From Myxococcales bacterium (GTDB lineage: Bacteria > Lernaellota > Lernaellaia > Lernaellales > Lernaellaceae), in assembly GCA_012517325.1 (NCBI GenBank), contig JAAYVF010000066.1:1-39849 (forward strand): a DNA stretch of 39,849 bases, written 5' to 3'. Numbering within the stretch: position 1 is the first letter of the stretch; each line of letters opens with the position of its first letter. Below the pieces are notes generated by a model. It saw only the letters and a list, made by a program, of their open reading frames with translations. It was not told the origin of the DNA and did no database searches. Made by a program: the position numbers and the translations under genes. Shown here piece after piece: positions 8,092 to 39,666 of the stretch.

Positions 8092-10794
8092 ATGCGCCGT
8101 TTATGCCTGGCTACTTTCATCATCATGATCGCCTGGGCCGCGACCGCCTGGGCGGATGCGCCTAAAAACGTGATCGAGGTCTACGCGCCCAATTACGATA
8201 CCCTGACCGCGCTGGCCGATTACAACGTCCGCTTCGAGGACTTCGAGCGGGAAGACTGGGTGCGCATCATCTGCGACGCGAAGACGATCGACGAACTGCG
8301 GGCCGCCGGCTTCGAGGTCAACGTGCTGATCGCCGACCTCGATAACTGGGTCAAGTCGCGGGCCCAAGCGATGGCGCAGCGGCCGAAGGAAGCGCCGCCG
8401 ACCGACGTCGTGCTCGATCACTACCTTACCCACGCGGAAATGACGACCTTCCTTTACGACCTGGAAGCGGCTTATCCGGACATCCTGTCCGTCGAGGAGA
8501 TCGGCGACAGCGTCGGCGGCCGGGCGCTCTTCGTAGCGAAGATTTCGGATAACGTGGCGGACAACGAGGCCGAACCGGCGGTCTTCTTCGAGCACAACAT
8601 CCACGGCGACGAGATCGCCGGCTACACCCTGGCGCTGTTCGTCATTCAGTGGCTGGTGACCGAATACGGCAGCGACCCCGACGTCACGGCCCTGGTCGAC
8701 AACCGCGAAATCTTCATCGAGCCGCTGACCAACCCCGACGGCAATTACGACGACCCGACCTGGGGCCGCAGCCGCTACAACAACCACGGCGTCGACCTCA
8801 ACCGCAACTATGGCTACATGTGGGATCCGGACGAATCCGCTCCGGGCGACGCGCCGCACAGCGAACCGGAAACGCAGGCCGTGGCCGAATTCTGGGAAGG
8901 CAACCAGCCTTTCATCTTCGGTATGTCGGGCCACAGCGGCACCGTCATTTTCCTGCACTCCTGGGGCTATATCGGTAACGATCCCGCCGACGACGCCGAA
9001 TTCGATTACATCGGCGAACAATATATCTACCCCAATCATTGCACCGATCCAGAAATGAACGTCCAAGGCAGTTGCTATAATGTGCTGTACCAGGCGGTCG
9101 GCGTCACCATGGACGAAATGTACGGTTCGCACGGCATGCTGGGGTTGTCCTACGAACTGAGCTACACCAAGGAATGCTCCTGGGCCACCTCGGTCGCGGT
9201 GTGGGAAGACCACCAACCGGCGATCAAGTGGCTGTTGCAGGAAGTCGGCAACGGCCTGCACGGCACGGTGACCGACATCGATTCGGGCGATCCGGTGGGC
9301 GCCCTGGTGCAGGTCGACGGCAAGTGGATGACCTTCACCGACTACGAAGTCGGCGATTTCCACAAGTACCTGCGCGCGGGCAGTTACACCCTGCATGTGA
9401 CGGCCAACAATTACGAGGATTACACGACCACCTTCGCGATCACCAACGGCGCGCCGACGAACCTCAACATCGAATTGACGCCGTCGGCCGAACCGCACAC
9501 TTTCCTGTTCCGCTGGCTCTACGACGAAATGCCCAACAGCTATTCCTCCACCTATCCGCCGGCCAACGCCTTCGGCCCGCCGGACGGCGATTTCATCAGC
9601 CTGGGCAACGGCGGCTTCGCCGTGGTCGATCTGGGCCCGGACGGCATCGCCGACGATGCGGGTTCGGATCTGGTCGTCTACGAGGCGGGCAGCGACGGCG
9701 ACGAGCCGTTCACGCTTTACGGCAGCAGCGGCGGACCGCACGGGCCGTGGGTGGAACTCGGCGAGGGCGACGGCACCTCGGGCTTCGATCTGGACGCCGC
9801 CGGCCTGGCGAGCGTGCGGTACCTGAAGATCGAGGACGGGGGCAGCGACCTGGATGCCGCGAACGACGGCTTCGACCTGGATGCCATCGGCACGCCGGTC
9901 TACCTCGCCGCCTTCAGCGCCGACGTCACCGAAGGCGCCCGGCCGCTGGAGGTGCACTTCACCGACCACTCGACCGGCAGCCCGACCTCGTGGTCCTGGG
10001 ATTTCGGCGACGGCAACACCTCCACCGAGCAGAACCCGACCAACACCTACACCGACCTGGGCACCTACGACGTCACCCTGATCATCAACGGGCCGGAAGG
10101 CGAAAAAACCCTGACCAAGACCGCTTACATCTCGGTCATCGAATTGCCGCCGACGGTCGATTTCACCGGCACGCCCACGAGCGGCGTCACGCCGCTGGAC
10201 GTGCAGTTCACCAGCGCGATCACGGGCGTCGTCGAAACGTATGCCTGGACCTTCGGCGACGGCGGCACCTCGGATGAGGCCAATCCGCTGCACACCTACG
10301 AGGCGCCGGGCGTCTATACGGTCAAGGTCGAGGTCACCGGTCCGGGCGGCTCGGTGTCGCGGCAGCGGTGGCGCTACATCAAGGTCAACTGCGGCGCGCC
10401 GATCGCCGACTTCGAGGCCGATGTGCTGACCGGCCAGGCACCGCTGACCGTCCACTTCACCAACCTCAGCGAGGTTTCGGCGGATTGCCCGGCCGCCTAC
10501 CTCTGGGATTACGGCGACGGGCAGACCGGCACGGCCGCCGAGCCGCAGCACGTGTACGAAACGGCCGGCGTCTACACCGTCACCCTGACGGCCACCAACG
10601 ACGGCGGCACCGATGTCGAGTCGAAAACCGGCTACATCACCGTCGAAGGCGGCGCGGACGACGATGACGACAACACGCCCGACGACGACGACAACGACGC
10701 CTCGCCCGCCGACGACGACAACGACGACGTTGACGACGATGACGACGCGGCCGGCGACGGCGATGACGACGACGATTCCGGTTGCGGGTGCTGA
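8092..10794 (+). CDS. Secreted M14 zinc carboxypeptidase with PKD domains and D-rich CGC tail
   Basis: The 900-aa protein has a signal peptide (residues 1-21, cleavage near AWA). The M14 metallocarboxypeptidase domain spans about 105-385: zinc ligands H171 and E174 (HNIHGDE) and H281 (MSGHSGT), substrate region NNHGVDLNRNY, and catalytic Glu E355 (GLSYELSY). A carboxypeptidase regulatory-like domain (about 388-465) and a second beta-rich region follow. Then come three PKD domains (about 604-683, 683-766, 766-855), each with the WDFGDG/WTFGDG/WDYGDG core. A 40-residue Asp-rich tract ends in SGCGC at the extreme C-terminus. There is no C-terminal membrane helix or basic patch, unlike MYXO-CTERM or LPXTG signals. 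It probably digests extracellular peptides at the cell surface. The tail is shared with the S8 protease at 37501. Confidence 0.9.
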   Translation: MRRLCLATFIIMIAWAATAWADAPKNVIEVYAPNYDTLTALADYNVRFEDFEREDWVRIICDAKTIDELRAAGFEVNVLIADLDNWVKSRAQAMAQRPKEAPPTDVVLDHYLTHAEMTTFLYDLEAAYPDILSVEEIGDSVGGRALFVAKISDNVADNEAEPAVFFEHNIHGDEIAGYTLALFVIQWLVTEYGSDPDVTALVDNREIFIEPLTNPDGNYDDPTWGRSRYNNHGVDLNRNYGYMWDPDESAPGDAPHSEPETQAVAEFWEGNQPFIFGMSGHSGTVIFLHSWGYIGNDPADDAEFDYIGEQYIYPNHCTDPEMNVQGSCYNVLYQAVGVTMDEMYGSHGMLGLSYELSYTKECSWATSVAVWEDHQPAIKWLLQEVGNGLHGTVTDIDSGDPVGALVQVDGKWMTFTDYEVGDFHKYLRAGSYTLHVTANNYEDYTTTFAITNGAPTNLNIELTPSAEPHTFLFRWLYDEMPNSYSSTYPPANAFGPPDGDFISLGNGGFAVVDLGPDGIADDAGSDLVVYEAGSDGDEPFTLYGSSGGPHGPWVELGEGDGTSGFDLDAAGLASVRYLKIEDGGSDLDAANDGFDLDAIGTPVYLAAFSADVTEGARPLEVHFTDHSTGSPTSWSWDFGDGNTSTEQNPTNTYTDLGTYDVTLIINGPEGEKTLTKTAYISVIELPPTVDFTGTPTSGVTPLDVQFTSAITGVVETYAWTFGDGGTSDEANPLHTYEAPGVYTVKVEVTGPGGSVSRQRWRYIKVNCGAPIADFEADVLTGQAPLTVHFTNLSEVSADCPAAYLWDYGDGQTGTAAEPQHVYETAGVYTVTLTATNDGGTDVESKTGYITVEGGADDDDDNTPDDDDNDASPADDDNDDVDDDDDAAGDGDDDDDSGCGC
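10657..10779 (+). repeat. GAC/GAT-rich tract encoding poly-Asp linker
   Basis: Repetitive GAC/GAT/AAC codons encode the DDDDDN, DDDDND and DDDNDD runs just before the CGC tail of the M14 peptidase. Mixed GAC/GAT usage suggests selection at protein level, but the reiteration makes the tract prone to length change by slippage. Similar tracts occur at 29891-29953, 31459-31620 and 37504-37626. Confidence 0.8.
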
Positions 10795-10888: not shown

Positions 10889-11554
10889 ATGCCGCGCAAA
10901 GCCTTTCGACTGGTCTGGTTCATCTGGCTGGCCGTCGCCGCCTGCTCGCCCCTGCGCGGGCTGCCCGAAAACGCCGGTTCGGTCGGTTCGACCGACAACG
11001 GCTACCTGGTCGGCGGCATTCAATTGCCAAGCAATGACGATCTGGTGGTGTTGGAACCCGAAAAGGCCTGGGGCACCCCGGAACTGGTTCATCTGCTCGA
11101 GGCGGTGGCGGCGGACATGCGCCTGGCCTATCCGGACGCTCCGCCGCTGGTCGTCGGTCACCTGTCGCGGCGCGAGGGCGGCTCGTTGTCGCCGCATCGC
11201 AGCCACCAGAGCGGCCGCGACGCCGACGTGGCGATGTACGCCGCCGACAACAAATTGCACCGGCGGTTTCTGGACATGACCAGCGCCGAGTTGGACGTCC
11301 CGAAAACCTGGGCGCTGATCGACACGCTGCAAACCAAAGGGCGTATCCAGTACATTTTGCTCGATTGGGAAGTGCAGCAGCGCATCTACGAGGAGATTTC
11401 CCTGTTCGAGCCCGAGCAGCGGCTGGCCTCGCTGTTTCAATATCCGCGCCCCCGCCGCACCCGCGCGGGCATCGTCCGCCACGCGTCGGGCCATTGCAAC
11501 CATTTGCACGTTCGCATTCACTGTCCGGAACAGGACACCCACTGCATCGAGTGA
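10889..11554 (+). CDS. MepA-like (M74) murein endopeptidase lipoprotein
   Basis: This 221-aa protein has a lipoprotein signal peptide: positive start, hydrophobic core, lipobox VAA-C19. The M74/LAS-type metallopeptidase motifs are visible: H106-x6-D113 (SPHRSHQSGRDADV, also H103) and H205-x-H207 (HCNHLHVRI), the zinc ligands and catalytic His of penicillin-insensitive murein endopeptidase. MepA cleaves D-alanyl-meso-diaminopimelyl cross-links. Here the enzyme is probably anchored to a membrane by lipid, facing the periplasm, unlike soluble periplasmic E. coli MepA. It is slightly shorter than E. coli MepA. The start codon has an AAGG close upstream, a short spacing. It follows the M14 gene after 94 bp containing a hairpin, so a separate transcript is likely. 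Confidence 0.85.
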   Translation: MPRKAFRLVWFIWLAVAACSPLRGLPENAGSVGSTDNGYLVGGIQLPSNDDLVVLEPEKAWGTPELVHLLEAVAADMRLAYPDAPPLVVGHLSRREGGSLSPHRSHQSGRDADVAMYAADNKLHRRFLDMTSAELDVPKTWALIDTLQTKGRIQYILLDWEVQQRIYEEISLFEPEQRLASLFQYPRPRRTRAGIVRHASGHCNHLHVRIHCPEQDTHCIE

Positions 11555-29785: not shown

Positions 29786-31363
29786 ATGAAATTCATGATC
29801 AGATTAGGGCTGGTCGTTTGTCTGGGCTGGCTGCTCGCCTTCGGTTCCTGCGCCGCCTCCGGTGCGAACCCGGAACAAGCTCAAGCGGCAGACGATGATC
29901 TCGCCGGCGACGGGTCCGACGACGACGCGGCCGCCGACGACGATCGGGACTCTCAATCCGCCACCCTGGATTTCGCTACCCTACCCGACACCGCCGAGGA
30001 GTACGCACCGCCGCCGTCGGACGAGATCGGCGTTTTCGTCGCGGCCGAAACGGGAAGCGATCGCAATCCGGGCACCATGGCCGCGCCCAAGCGGACCCTC
30101 CGCGCCGCGATTCGGCTGGCCCGGCGAGTCGACAAGGTCGTCTTCATTGCCGCCGGAACCTACCCGGAGTCGATCACCACCGCCGTTTCGCTCTTCGGGG
30201 GTTACCGCGCGACGGACTGGGCGCGCGACATCCGGGCCTATCGCTCGATCATTGCGCCGCGCCTGCCGACCGGCGTGACCGTTGCGCCGACAGCCCGAGT
30301 GCCGGAGGTGATCCTCGAGGGCCTCGAAATTCATGGGGCCGATGTGCGAACGTTCGATCCGGTCCAGGGTGAAACCGCGATCTCGGTCGCCCTGGCGGTC
30401 ACCGGCGGAAACGCCGTTCTGGCGCACAACCGGATCGTCGGCGGCACGGCGTCGGATCTCAGCGCCGGCGGGCTGGCGTGGTCGATCGGCCTGCAGGGCC
30501 GGGACATCGAATCCATTCAATTGATTGCCAACGAGATCACGGGCGGCGCCGCTCGTGGCTTAAGCGAAGCCCGGACCTGGGGCATCGCGATCGACGGCGA
30601 TGGCGCGCAAGTGACTGCCATCGACAACCGCGTGCATTACGGCGCCGCGCTCAGCAGCGGCTATTTCGCGAAATCGTCTGGCGTCAGTCTGAGCGGCGAT
30701 ACCGCGGAGACCGCCGCCTTGTTCGTGCGCAACGACATTCGGGTGCGAAATTCCGTCGCCCACCGAACGGCCGACGATACCGTCGTTCTATCCACGAAGG
30801 GCGAGGTGGCGCTGACCGCCGTGGGCAACTATTTTTACGCCGCGTCGGCGTACGGGGCGACGCTGGTGGACAGCGCGGGCCCGGCGGTCCTGATTCAAAA
30901 CACGCTGACGCTGCGCGCCGACGGCATGGCGTCGGCGACCGTCTTTCACCGCCGGGCGTCACTGGTCGACAATCTCTTTTTTCTCGATGCGTACATGGAC
31001 TCGGTTTTTATTCTGCTGGCGGACGGGGTTTTCGCCACCCGCCTCGTCGCCAACAATTTCTATTTGAACCGGCCCCACGGCAATTTTATTTTTCGCGGTC
31101 GCCAGGGCATCGAGGATTTGTCGGTGCTCGAAGATTGCCATTGGCGCGGCTGCGCGGAAGCGCGGCGCAACCGGAACGATCAGCCGCGGTTGGCGGCTTG
31201 GGAAGATTTTCACCTCCGGGACGATAGCCCCTGCATCGATCGGGGTGTCGATCCCGCGCCCTGGTACGACGGCCCGGAAATCCGCCGTGACCTCGACGGC
31301 CAGCGACGGCCCCAGGGCGTCGGCTGGGATGTCGGCGCGGACGAATACCGGCCGGAGGAGTAG
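29786..31363 (+). CDS. Lipoprotein with D-rich linker and parallel beta-helix domain (paralogue 1)
   Basis: A 525-aa protein. Lipoprotein signal ends at C22 (LLAFGSC). An Asp-rich linker follows (about residues 36-58, encoded at 29891-29953). Next is a DUF1565-like entry segment (IGVFVAAETGSDRNPGTMAAPKRTL, VVFIAAGTYPESI) leading into repeated beta-strand coils (VLAHNRIVGG, LIANEITGG, VTAIDNRVHYG), as in pectate-lyase-like right-handed helices. It closes with a choice-of-anchor-like end (DSPCIDRGVDP, RRDLDGQRRPQGVGWDVGADEY). The fold is carbohydrate-binding or surface-structural by family; no catalytic residues are assigned. The ATG at 29786 has GAGG 6 nt upstream; the frame's earlier ATG (29738) lies before the signal peptide. 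Confidence 0.85.
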   Translation: MKFMIRLGLVVCLGWLLAFGSCAASGANPEQAQAADDDLAGDGSDDDAAADDDRDSQSATLDFATLPDTAEEYAPPPSDEIGVFVAAETGSDRNPGTMAAPKRTLRAAIRLARRVDKVVFIAAGTYPESITTAVSLFGGYRATDWARDIRAYRSIIAPRLPTGVTVAPTARVPEVILEGLEIHGADVRTFDPVQGETAISVALAVTGGNAVLAHNRIVGGTASDLSAGGLAWSIGLQGRDIESIQLIANEITGGAARGLSEARTWGIAIDGDGAQVTAIDNRVHYGAALSSGYFAKSSGVSLSGDTAETAALFVRNDIRVRNSVAHRTADDTVVLSTKGEVALTAVGNYFYAASAYGATLVDSAGPAVLIQNTLTLRADGMASATVFHRRASLVDNLFFLDAYMDSVFILLADGVFATRLVANNFYLNRPHGNFIFRGRQGIEDLSVLEDCHWRGCAEARRNRNDQPRLAAWEDFHLRDDSPCIDRGVDPAPWYDGPEIRRDLDGQRRPQGVGWDVGADEYRPEE

Positions 31364-31394: not shown

Positions 31395-32873
31395 ATGAAA
31401 ACCCGATGGCTTGGCCTCCTCATCATGGCTTGTTGCACAATCCTGATCGACTGCTCGACTGACGACGACGACCCTTCGACAAGCTCAGGGCAGGCTGATG
31501 ACGATAATGATGACGCCTCCGGCGTCGATGACGACAGCGCCGCCGATGACGATGGTGGTGGGACCGACGACGACCTCGGCGATGACGACCTGACCGACGA
31601 TGACACCGACCTGCCGGATTACGGTTACGAACCGCCCGTGCCCAGCGATGAAATCGGCATCTTCGCCGCCCAAACCGGCGGCGACGACGCGCCGGGAACC
31701 ATGGCCCAACCCGTGCGCACCATCGGCCGCGCCATGGAACTGGCGTTCGCGGCGGACAAGGCGGTGTTCGTGGCGCGCGGGCATTACCGCGAAGCCGTGC
31801 AGGCCGTGGCTTCGCTCTACGGCGGTTACGAGGAAGCGGGTTGGACCCGCGACCTCGCCGCCAACGCGACCTACATCGAAGCCCCGCTGGATCGGGCCGG
31901 AGTGACGGCGAGCGGGACGGCGGCGCGCGGCGAACTGGTCGTCGAAGGCTTTCACGTTCAGGGCGGCTTCGCCCAAGACACCTCGATCGGCGTCGACATC
32001 CGGCGCGATGAGGTCACGCTGCGCTGGAACGACATCGCCGCCGGCACCGTCTGGACCTACGGCGGCGGCGGTTTATCCTACGGCGTCTCGGTCGGCGACA
32101 GCGCGGCGGTCCTGATCGTCGACAACGACATCCGCGCCGGGAAGGTGTTCGCGCCGGCGTCGTATGCCCAGCCGGTGGGCGTCAATCTCGACGCGGGCGC
32201 CGCGGTCACTCTGGTGGGCAATCGCATTCGCGGCGGCGCGGTCCTGCTTTCGCTCGACGAGCTTTCGATCGCCGTGCAGAACCGTTCGGAACTGCCGGTG
32301 GTACTGGTCAACAATCAATTAGCGACGGCCCCGTCGCCGTATGCCTACGGCTTTTCCACCTATACCGGCGGCTTGCTGGCGCACAACACCATCGTCATTC
32401 GCGACGCGCAATACTTGTCGTACGCCGTGGTGATCAACCAATCGCTGATCGATCCGGAAGCCCAATTGGTGCTCGTCAACAATATTTTCTCGATGGGCGC
32501 GCAACCAAACGGCCGGCCGGTCGCCTTGTGCTCCTGGATCAAACACGACCGCATCACCGCGGTGGGTAACGATTTCCACGGGCCGGCGGGTTTTCACCTG
32601 ATCGAAGCGGACCTGGCCTATTTCGACAATCCGGAGCGGGTCAACGCCTGCCGGTGGACCGGTTGCCGGGAAGCCCACGACAATCTTTCGGCCGCGCCGG
32701 AATTCGTGGGCGGTGGCGACTATCACCTGACCGCGGGCAGCCCGTGCCGCGACGCCGGGATCGATCCGACGCCTTGGTACGACGAGTTGTGGGTGCGATA
32801 CGACCTCGACGGCAATCCGCGCCCATGGGGCCCCGGTTGGGACATCGGAATGGATGAATACAAGGGGCCATGA
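31395..32873 (+). CDS. Lipoprotein with D-rich linker and parallel beta-helix domain (paralogue 2)
   Basis: A 492-aa tandem paralogue of the preceding gene. It has the same entry segment (DEIGIFAAQTGGDDAPGTMAQPVRTIGRAMEL, AVFVARGHYREAV, SLYGGY), helix coils and ending (GSPCRDAGIDPTPWYDE, YDLDGNPRPWGPGWDIGMDEY). The lipobox Cys is C13 (LLIMAC) or C20 (ILIDC, with an unusual Asp at -1). The D-rich linker (31459-31620) is much longer than in paralogue 1 and contains an in-frame foreign insert PSTSSGQA. Strong Shine-Dalgarno (GAGGAGG). It lies 31 bp after paralogue 1 and is probably co-transcribed. The two differ clearly in sequence, so the duplication is old. Confidence 0.85.
   Translation: MKTRWLGLLIMACCTILIDCSTDDDDPSTSSGQADDDNDDASGVDDDSAADDDGGGTDDDLGDDDLTDDDTDLPDYGYEPPVPSDEIGIFAAQTGGDDAPGTMAQPVRTIGRAMELAFAADKAVFVARGHYREAVQAVASLYGGYEEAGWTRDLAANATYIEAPLDRAGVTASGTAARGELVVEGFHVQGGFAQDTSIGVDIRRDEVTLRWNDIAAGTVWTYGGGGLSYGVSVGDSAAVLIVDNDIRAGKVFAPASYAQPVGVNLDAGAAVTLVGNRIRGGAVLLSLDELSIAVQNRSELPVVLVNNQLATAPSPYAYGFSTYTGGLLAHNTIVIRDAQYLSYAVVINQSLIDPEAQLVLVNNIFSMGAQPNGRPVALCSWIKHDRITAVGNDFHGPAGFHLIEADLAYFDNPERVNACRWTGCREAHDNLSAAPEFVGGGDYHLTAGSPCRDAGIDPTPWYDELWVRYDLDGNPRPWGPGWDIGMDEYKGP
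31459..31620 (+). repeat. GAC/GAT-rich tract encoding N-terminal poly-Asp linker
   Basis: About 50 codons dominated by Asp (DDDD, DDDNDD, DDDSAADDD, DDDLGDDDL) follow the lipid-anchor region. The repeat unit matches the C-terminal tracts of the M14 and S8 peptidases. It is interrupted by the 26-bp dispersed repeat at 31471-31496. Confidence 0.75.
31471..31496 (+). repeat. Dispersed-repeat insert within the D-rich linker
   Basis: CCTTCGACAAGCTCAGG with flanking bases encodes PSTSSGQA here and would encode CPELVEG on the other strand. This sequence is known to me as a widespread dispersed repeat in environmental bacterial genomes; no second copy is seen in the window. It is an imperfect palindrome and stays in frame in the Asp tract. 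Confidence 0.6.
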
Positions 32874-37500: not shown

Positions 37501-39603
37501 TCAGCAGCCGCAGGCTTCGGAACTCTCGTCGTCGTTGTCGTCGTCGGACGGGTTGGCGTCGTCGTTGTCGTCGTCGGTCTGGTCGTCGTCGGCGGCATCG
37601 TCGTCGGCGCTGTCGTCGTCGGCGTCCTGGCAGGTCGGGTCCGCGGCGTCTTTCAGGCCGTCGCAATTGTTGTCGACGAAATCGTCGCAGATTTCCACCG
37701 CGCCCGGGTGGATCGCCGCGCTGTCGTCGTTGCAGTCGCCGGAGCAGAGGAAGTAGCCGTCGCCGTCGGCGTCGACTTCGCCGTCCAGCAGTTGGGCGTC
37801 GCAGTTGTTGTCGACACCGTCGCAAACCTCGTCGGCGCCGGGGTAGACATTCGGATCGTTGGGCCGGCAGTCGCCGTCGCATTGCGGGACACCGTCCTCG
37901 TCGGGATCGGTCTCGTTCGGCGGCAGCACGTCGTCGCAATTGTTGTCGACGCCATCGCAGATTTCATTCGCGCCGGGATAGGTTTTCGGGTCTTCGGGAC
38001 CGCAGTCGCCTTCGCAGGCCATGTAGCCGTCCTCGTCGGGGTCGGTTTCGTCGGCCGGGACGACCTCGTCGCAGTTGTCGTCGATGCCGTTGCAGGATTC
38101 GGTCTGGCCCGGATGGATGGCGGCGTCGTAGTCGTTGCAGTCGTCGCCGCCGCATTCCGGCTTTTCGTAGCCGTCGCCGTCGTTGTCGCAGGCGTTGGCC
38201 AGGAATTCATAGGCCGCCACCACGTCGATCCGGCCGCGGCCGAAGGTGTTGTCATCGCCCGCTTCGCCCAGGTCCACCGCCGTGAAATAGAGCGCCATCT
38301 TGAGTTGCTGCACGGTCGCGTCCGGGTAGGCCTGGCTGAGCAGCAGGATAGCGCCGGAAACGTGCGGCGTCGCCATCGAGGTGCCGTCCATCTCGGTGTA
38401 GCCGCCGGGGATCGACGAGCGCACCGCCTGGCCGATCGCCGAGACCTCGGGCTTGATGGTGGCGCGGTCGCAACGCGACGGGCCGCGGCTCGAGAAGCTG
38501 GCGATCCGGTCGCCGGACGGGGCGAGCGCGCCGATCGCGAAGGCGTTGTAATCGGTGGTGATGCGGTCGGCCGGCGAGCGCAGCGTGCCGCGGAACGGCC
38601 CCTCGTTGCCGGCGGCGAAGGTGACGACCACGCCGGCCATCTCCGCCACATCCATCGACGCCCAGAAGGTGTCGTCGCAATACGGGAAGCCCGAAATGCC
38701 CCACGAGTTGTTCACCACGGCCGGCACGTCGTCCATCGTGCCCGGGTTGTTGTCGGGATCGGCGAACCATTCGAACGCCGCGACCGCCTCGGTGTAAATG
38801 TTGACCGTCGGCACGTCGACCACCGCCGCCGCGATCCACTGCGCGCCCGGCGCCATGCCGATCTGGTTGTCGCCGTCGTCGCCGCCGACCATCGTGCCCA
38901 TCGTGTGGGTGCCGTGCTCGCCGCTGTCATAGGGGAAATCGGCGTGCTGCCAGGGGTCGTACCAGCATTGCGAGGCGGGAGCGGAAAGGCCCCGCCAGCG
39001 CGTCGCGAAGGCCGGGTGCGTGCCGTCGCAACCGGTATCCATGTCGCCGGCGATGACGCCCGTGCCGTCGATGCCCAGGTCCCACAATTCCGGCGCGCGG
39101 GTGCTTTCGATGCCGGGTTCGATGCCCTTGGGGCCCTTCTCGTCACCGTCGGCGATCCGCACCGGAGCGATCGATTCCAGCGGGTAGTCGAAATAAATGC
39201 GGTCGACTTCGGGTCGCTGGCGAAGCAGTTGGTAGAAATCGGCCGTGGCGCGCACGGCGAAGGCGTTGTCGATCCAGTAGGCGCGATACGACTGCACGGC
39301 GCCGAGTTTCTGATAAGTTTCGAGGAAGAGCCGCAGCGGTTCCTGGGTCTGCGCCGCTTTGTCCTGCAACGTGGTAATGACCTCGAAATGCCGCCTGGAG
39401 CGCGAGGCCTTCATGGTGTCGAGGCGATCCTGCAGATCCCGCAAATCGACGCGATCGGCCAGTACGACGTAGCTGCCCACCATTTCTTTGTCGGCGGCGT
39501 TGTCCAGCGCGTCTTCCAGGGTCGGATCGACCCAGGCGGCGAACGCCTGTGCGAAGGTGAAGGAAATCAGCGTGAAGAAAAACAGGAAAAGAACTTTTTT
39601 CAT
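37501..39603 (-). CDS. Secreted S8 subtilisin-like protease with MopE repeats and D-rich CGC tail
   Basis: A 700-aa protein. Signal peptide 1-22. Residues about 40-140 look like an I9-type propeptide (YVVLADRVDLRDL, RIYFDYP). The catalytic domain has D189 (AGDMDTGCDGTHP), H230 (GEHGTHTMGT), oxyanion N299 (VVNNSWG) and S409 (DGTSMATPHVSG). From about 487 there are four Cys-rich MopE-type repeats (CNGIDDNCD, CDGVDNNCDDVL, CDGVDNNCDAQL, CDDFVDNNCDG), each with GDC and YPGA/HPGA segments; the family is annotated as putative metal-binding. A D-rich linker then ends in EACGC. The ATG at 39603 fits the signal peptide, with GGGGAG 7 nt upstream. An upstream in-frame extension to 39663 is rejected. 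Confidence 0.92.
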   Translation of the reverse strand: MKKVLFLFFFTLISFTFAQAFAAWVDPTLEDALDNAADKEMVGSYVVLADRVDLRDLQDRLDTMKASRSRRHFEVITTLQDKAAQTQEPLRLFLETYQKLGAVQSYRAYWIDNAFAVRATADFYQLLRQRPEVDRIYFDYPLESIAPVRIADGDEKGPKGIEPGIESTRAPELWDLGIDGTGVIAGDMDTGCDGTHPAFATRWRGLSAPASQCWYDPWQHADFPYDSGEHGTHTMGTMVGGDDGDNQIGMAPGAQWIAAAVVDVPTVNIYTEAVAAFEWFADPDNNPGTMDDVPAVVNNSWGISGFPYCDDTFWASMDVAEMAGVVVTFAAGNEGPFRGTLRSPADRITTDYNAFAIGALAPSGDRIASFSSRGPSRCDRATIKPEVSAIGQAVRSSIPGGYTEMDGTSMATPHVSGAILLLSQAYPDATVQQLKMALYFTAVDLGEAGDDNTFGRGRIDVVAAYEFLANACDNDGDGYEKPECGGDDCNDYDAAIHPGQTESCNGIDDNCDEVVPADETDPDEDGYMACEGDCGPEDPKTYPGANEICDGVDNNCDDVLPPNETDPDEDGVPQCDGDCRPNDPNVYPGADEVCDGVDNNCDAQLLDGEVDADGDGYFLCSGDCNDDSAAIHPGAVEICDDFVDNNCDGLKDAADPTCQDADDDSADDDAADDDQTDDDNDDANPSDDDNDDESSEACGC
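37504..37626 (-). repeat. GAC/GAT-rich tract encoding C-terminal poly-Asp linker of the S8 protease
   Basis: Reiterated Asp codons (DADDDSADDD, DDDQTDDDNDDAN, DDDNDDE) immediately before the ACGC end. On the opposite strand it reads as GTCGTC repeats and creates spurious open frames. It matches the tract at 10657-10779 in unit and position. Confidence 0.75.
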
Positions 39604-39666
39604 GGCGGGCTCCCCTGCGAGTACCTGGCGAAATCGGATCCGGTCATCCGGAGCCAAAAGCAAGGC

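Follow-up and report, generated by a model that had tools for sequence, protein, structure and literature searches.

A helix-less C-terminal cysteine tag behind acidic linkers as a probable surface anchor in one candidate phylum

Introduction

Does an exported protein that ends in Cys-Gly-Cys directly before its stop codon carry an attachment or processing site at that end? The question is raised by an M14 peptidase gene in a stretch of DNA of 39,849 nucleotides, analysed at its full length and called the window below. An original prediction, made from the sequence of the window alone, proposed that the terminal cysteines are such a site. The analysis supports this proposal, while the chemistry (lipid, disulfide or other) is unproven.

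Two known systems offer points of reference. In MYXO-CTERM proteins, a helix is preceded by a "generic GCGC motif", one Cys of which is invariant; lipidation of this Cys by an Lgt-like enzyme has been proposed, and cleavage by myxosortase was shown to occur distal to the presumed lipidated Cys (PMC11980579). In Bacteroidetes, export of lipoproteins to the surface is signalled by the sequence SDDDD behind the lipid Cys (PMC5080379).

The tag and its counterparts in the window

The M14 zinc carboxypeptidase (8092..10794, + strand) is encoded by an open reading frame of 900 aa. ORF reading and domain search give a Sec signal peptide (MRRLCLATFIIMIAWAATAWA), a Peptidase_M14 domain and three PKD domains. 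An Asp/Asn-rich linker of about 40 residues, free of Lys and Arg, lies at 10657..10776 and is followed by the terminal tag SGCGC (10777-10791) and its TGA stop, which closes the feature at 10794. The protein ends in GDDDDDSGCGC, and the helix and basic tail are absent, as had been predicted. The S8 subtilase on the opposite strand (37501..39663, -) has the same layout, which was also confirmed. Its likely start is the ATG at 39603, with the signal MKKVLFLFFFTLISFTFAQAFA, and it comprises a Peptidase_S8 domain and MopE repeats. The Asp-rich linker (37513..37626) leads into the terminal Cys-Gly-Cys and TGA stop (37501..37512), assigned from the sequence and the genome-wide pattern. The end reads DDESSEACGC, with no helix or basic residues beyond the motif.

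The same kind of linker had been reported next to the N-terminal lipid anchor of two lipoproteins of the window. This holds for the protein at 29786..31363 (+), where the D-rich linker stands right behind LAFGSC (lipobox Cys at 29849-29851) and is thus an N-terminal counterpart of the tag. Its paralogue at 31395..32873 (+) has the linker after the N-terminal Cys at 31452-31454, but its status as a lipoprotein is doubtful because Asp at position -1 (TILIDC) makes a poor, atypical lipobox. Both proteins match the choice-of-anchor Q family, the first barely above the cut-off. Beside the M14 gene, positions 10889-11554 (+) encode a small protein with the lipobox AVAAC that resembles a MepA-type murein endopeptidase.

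Number and anatomy of the tags in the genome

In the genome of 5.25 Mb there are 98 copies of the pattern TGYGGNTGYTGA, but 10 of the reversed control pattern. The pattern TGYGGNTGYTAR shows no excess (19 occurrences, 68 for its control); most of the 19 are nevertheless real tags on reading. The stretches around nearly all pattern sites were read, about 1.77 Mb. As they were picked for CGC sites, class ratios are biased and variants elsewhere are under-counted. Signal peptides were called by a home-made rule.

Open frames of at least 60 aa ending in CGC number 90, and the tail is D/N-rich or acidic in about 84 of them, nearly all with a Sec-type signal peptide. The curated set holds 82 distinct proteins with a D/N-rich linker and a CGC end, and variant endings (CGA, CGN, CF, CI, CCG, GCGCG) were found in about 20 further proteins. 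From composition alone, at most about 0.05 CGC ends would be expected per roughly 4,500 proteins. The prediction would have failed had CGC ends been no more frequent than chance allows and lacked signal peptides or linkers; they lie vastly above chance, and the proteins that bear them nearly always have a signal peptide as well as an acidic linker. A chance or composition effect is ruled out by the excess of the pattern and the low expectation. The twelve bases that code for CGC and the stop are written in 20 different ways, which indicates selection at the protein level. The tag is carried by about a hundred secreted proteins, some 2% of the genes of this genome.

Among 102 curated tails, the residue preceding the first Cys is Gly in 83 and Ser in 10. 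The end is CGC in 79 and CCGC in three, and in most of the remaining tails one Cys is still found among the final five residues. The variant ends are CGA, CGN, CGF, CGW, CF, CI, CS, CG, C, CCG, CCGI, CGCG and CGCGS; the rows CPLKD, CQGAG, CRR, CWY and CE are possibly spurious. A single Cys close to the stop is the only invariant residue of the tag, and the second Cys is not essential. The linker has a median length of 40 residues, with Lys, Arg and His together below 1%. The cargo is made up of unrelated ectoenzymes, peptidases, beta-propellers and FG-GAP proteins.

Two side observations concern the DNA of these tails. In many proteins (e.g., those of L066 and L050), the linkers are (NDD)n runs that resemble expanded trinucleotide repeats (AAC GAC GAC), and through repeat expansion their length may vary between strains. 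The stop codon is TGA in 65 of the 82 CGC tails and TAA or TAG in 17. The TGA share of 79% compares with 47% in other long genes; the context of the preceding base is partly responsible and the rest is unexplained.

Exchange with other anchors

Where an exported protein has an acidic tail but no terminal Cys, it is either an N-terminal lipoprotein (L070, L085, L111, L124) or a genuine MYXO-CTERM protein with Cys, helix and Arg. In a hand-curated table, the terminal Cys is present in 82 of 82 proteins with signal peptidase I (SPI)-type signals vs two of six lipoproteins (Fisher p = 6e-6). Tagged proteins thus have SPI-type signals and no lipobox, with two exceptions, both in L106. These two neighbours (L106:8095-9714 and L106:9922-12882) apparently combine a lipobox with the C-terminal Cys tag and are possibly doubly anchored. 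Apart from this pair, which was counted against the anchor model, the terminal Cys replaces another anchor and the tag is exclusive with other anchors.

It had also been noted that the linker sits beside the attachment point at either protein end, and this holds genome-wide. The same D-rich linker stands directly behind the lipid Cys in more than 40 lipoproteins of the genome. A domain of about 370 aa occurs in both arrangements, as signal, domain, linker and GGCGC end in L066 and as lipobox Cys, linker and domain in L040 (404 aligned residues, e=1e-26). Anchor and linker have thus changed protein ends together. Behind a PKD end, L123 has the tag and L048 has MYXO-CTERM. Genuine MYXO-CTERM proteins of the genome share the linker as well (DDDNDDDSGGCSVGRGDPLLSLLGAMAAIGLVALAVSRRRER), for example as DDDNDDDSGGC, then helix, then RRRER. 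Small clusters of such proteins with poly-Asp linkers, here outside Myxococcota, are found at G000:C6:50427-51390 and C122:68928-70405.

Distribution across genomes

Of the seven genomes of the phylum, six contain the strict DNA pattern: G005 has a single copy, and the other five have 9-23 copies each. In the remaining genome, G004, the sequences before the stop are DDDDDDQSCCG and DDDDACCG in two M14 homologues. These CCG endings are a dialect of the same tag, which all seven genomes use. A third G004 match covers the PKD region only (L233) and has no tag. The complete tails of M14 homologues in the other phylum genomes end in SGCGC, GGCGC, GGCF, ACCG, ACGCSS or GGCGS; the G003 frame L227, whose end is not readable, was left out. 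The tag or a close variant is kept in nearly every complete tail, including CCG in the most distant genome. The set of phylum genomes has no tag-less member for contrast.

Outside the phylum, the strict pattern was found in eight of 283 genomes, one match each. Only two of these matches close an open frame; each of the two frames has fewer than 50 codons and lacks a signal peptide. When 84,980 species were scanned for DDDDx, one of G, S, A or C, and a CGC end, 12 true matches were obtained, all in a single same-phylum MAG (JAOSJX01, deposited as Deltaproteobacteria FR_14, which is G003). The one remaining match, in Hyphomonadaceae, is in the wrong frame and was rejected as chance. No tag was found in viral contigs. 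The tag is restricted to one small candidate phylum, with none found outside it in the 283 bacterial genomes or the 84,980-species scan.

Relation to known sorting systems

The closest known system is MYXO-CTERM/myxosortase (TIGR03901, MrtX family). Both systems concern Sec-exported proteins, surface-located by inference in the case of the tag, with a (G)CGC-type motif: behind a linker stands a short signature of Gly and Cys that includes an invariant Cys. This genome has the two forms with a common linker, and the product of a myxosortase would have the same end as the tag. In contrast to MYXO-CTERM, the stop lies directly behind the motif and cleavage is unneeded. The helix that follows the MYXO-CTERM motif is absent in the tags and none is hidden downstream; an Arg-rich cytoplasmic tail is absent from the M14 and S8 proteins and from the CGC ends read genome-wide. 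The above-cut-off TIGR03901 matches that were read at the C-terminus all bear a helix, and no CGC-ended protein is among them. The tag had been proposed to be distinct from MYXO-CTERM. This stands as far as the missing helix and basic tail are concerned, but the tag has the signature Cys motif of MYXO-CTERM, and the same linker goes with both. On these features, the tag is better seen as a relative of MYXO-CTERM than as something unrelated. It is not a member of that family, and there is a good probability that it works like one.

Other systems share less with the tag. JDVT-CTERM, Synerg-CTERM, GlyGly-CTERM/rhombosortase and PEP-CTERM are likewise C-terminal sorting tags on exported cargo, but they are tripartite (motif, helix, basic tail), whereas this tag consists of the motif only. 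CTERM-type tags such as these and MYXO-CTERM all depend on a membrane helix to keep the tail close to the enzyme up to cleavage. N-terminal lipoproteins with a surface-export signal (LES, SDDDD in Bacteroidetes) have a Cys beside an Asp run, and this genome has many lipobox Cys with the same linker. An acidic run adjoining a Cys, with a putative role in surface export, is present in the tag too, but at the opposite terminus, without a lipobox and with a signal peptidase I-type signal. The C-terminal domains of type IX secretion also provide helix-less surface sorting in a Gram-negative-type envelope. Unlike the tag, a disordered acidic tail with a Cys, they are folded beta-sandwich domains that are cut off. 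No NCBIfam family describing the tag was found, nor was a description of a helix-less version of MYXO-CTERM in the literature searched, which mostly excluded subscription journals.

Proposed mechanism and alternatives

The reading preferred here, with a probability of roughly 0.6, is that a D/N-rich linker followed by Gly or Ser, a Cys, an optional Gly and Cys, and the stop forms a phylum-specific C-terminal surface-anchoring tag. Its Cys is most likely lipidated, and the tag would then be a "pre-cut" form akin to MYXO-CTERM but without the helix. The sequences themselves establish the tag, its number and cargo, its association with signal peptides, its interchange with N-terminal lipid and MYXO-CTERM anchors and its restriction to the phylum. 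The evidence for a role as anchor is good; the lipid is an inference, with no biochemical evidence of any modification. The enzyme, the export route and the surface location of the tagged proteins are inferences as well. Judging from its N-terminal signal peptide, a tagged protein would be exported by Sec. Its extreme C-terminal Cys would then be modified covalently, most likely with a lipid, by a membrane acyltransferase that is unidentified but could be one of three Lgt paralogues. Next to the lipidated Cys, the acidic linker may mark the protein for the cell surface, like the poly-acidic stretches of surface lipoproteins, and the folded protein would cross the outer membrane probably by the T2SS. 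The stop right behind the Cys motif would give the terminus that a myxosortase otherwise has to cut. Since that terminus is already made by the stop codon, the proposal needs no helix, basic tail or protease. A bolder version is tentative and falls somewhat short of an even chance. It holds that bacteria of this phylum lipidate the extreme C-terminal Cys of about a hundred exported proteins in each genome, with neither a transmembrane helix nor proteolysis. The enzyme would be a specialised paralogue of Lgt or an acyltransferase not yet known, and poly-Asp would be a surface-export signal working at either end. Such lipidation would be a third lipoprotein route after the N-terminal lipobox and the MYXO-CTERM type.

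The original prediction called for a co-occurring membrane protease or acyltransferase. Such enzymes are encoded, a myxosortase-family protease (Mrt_core 118 bits, cut-off 100) and three Lgt paralogues (G000:C87:48576, C27:44104, C7:33151), but no enzyme gene was found to track the tag across the phylum genomes. Mrt_core is above the cut-off in this and three other phylum genomes, reaches 98.8 bits in G004 and is weak in G002. In G001, which is 99% complete and has at least 22 tags, no member of the CPBP family (which includes myxosortase) was detected, which weakens myxosortase as an obligatory processing enzyme. At least three Lgt loci are present in all seven phylum genomes, with some frames broken in G003 and G004. 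The conserved Lgt residues are retained in most aligned copies, and one Lgt adjoins LspA. Three or more Lgt matches were found in five of five well-assembled phylum members vs five of 139 other well-assembled genomes. The association of this excess with the tag is suggestive only, because the phylum is one lineage, and three Lgts may simply reflect many lipoproteins. An Lgt substrate is normally a Cys beside a membrane-embedded signal peptide. A soluble acidic C-tail offers no membrane-embedded segment, which speaks against lipidation by Lgt, and access of the enzyme to the tail is the largest gap in the model. The T2SS secretin GspD is full-length and above the cut-off in six of seven phylum genomes; in G002 it is broken into two pieces. 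The gene neighbourhoods of the Lgt paralogues and the myxosortase showed no specific conserved partner.

Anchoring need not involve a lipid. The terminal Cys could be linked by a disulfide to another tagged protein, or to a surface or matrix protein that bears a Cys, and the two Cys (CGC) or CC of most tags and their flexible terminal linkers would suit such cross-linking. We regard this tether as unlikely, since single-Cys variants (GGCGA, GGCF, GGCI, GGC) stand behind the same linkers and the exchange of the tag for an N-terminal lipid Cys or for MYXO-CTERM speaks for anchoring in a membrane. The same single-Cys variants rule out a CXC-specific redox motif. CXC is a known redox-active arrangement and poly-Asp binds cations, so a tail acting as thiol/disulfide or metal site without any anchoring can be imagined. 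It is very improbable, as the CXC pair is not conserved among the variants, the cargo is unrelated (peptidases, propellers, FG-GAP) and the exclusivity with other anchors would be left unexplained.

The tag could instead be a recognition or processing signal for a machine of the secretion or transpeptidase type, which would couple the protein to a second molecule of the surface and might trim its end. The residues past the invariant Cys vary (C, CG, CGx, CGC, CGCG), which is compatible with removal, and the genome encodes the myxosortase-family protease described above. The lack of a detected CPBP protein in G001 and of any enzyme that tracks the tag makes this reading doubtful. That the tags are ordinary MYXO-CTERM ends masked by stop-codon readthrough, frameshift or sequencing error can practically be set aside. 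TGA is commoner at the tags (65 of 82) than in other genes, but 17 tags end in TAA or TAG, the next in-frame stop is no further away and the pattern recurs in independent genomes. Downstream transmembrane-like peptides are no commoner than in controls (14 of 82 vs 182 of 919), and this comparison in the main refutes readthrough or frameshift into a hidden helix.

Conclusions

If the anchor reading is true, a tag of linker, Cys and stop shows that the helix and the protease are dispensable and isolates the modification step. It would be a minimal substrate for testing which enzyme modifies the MYXO-CTERM Cys, and possibly a short, genetically simple tag for surface display. The surface proteome of an uncultured phylum would become readable from its C-termini.
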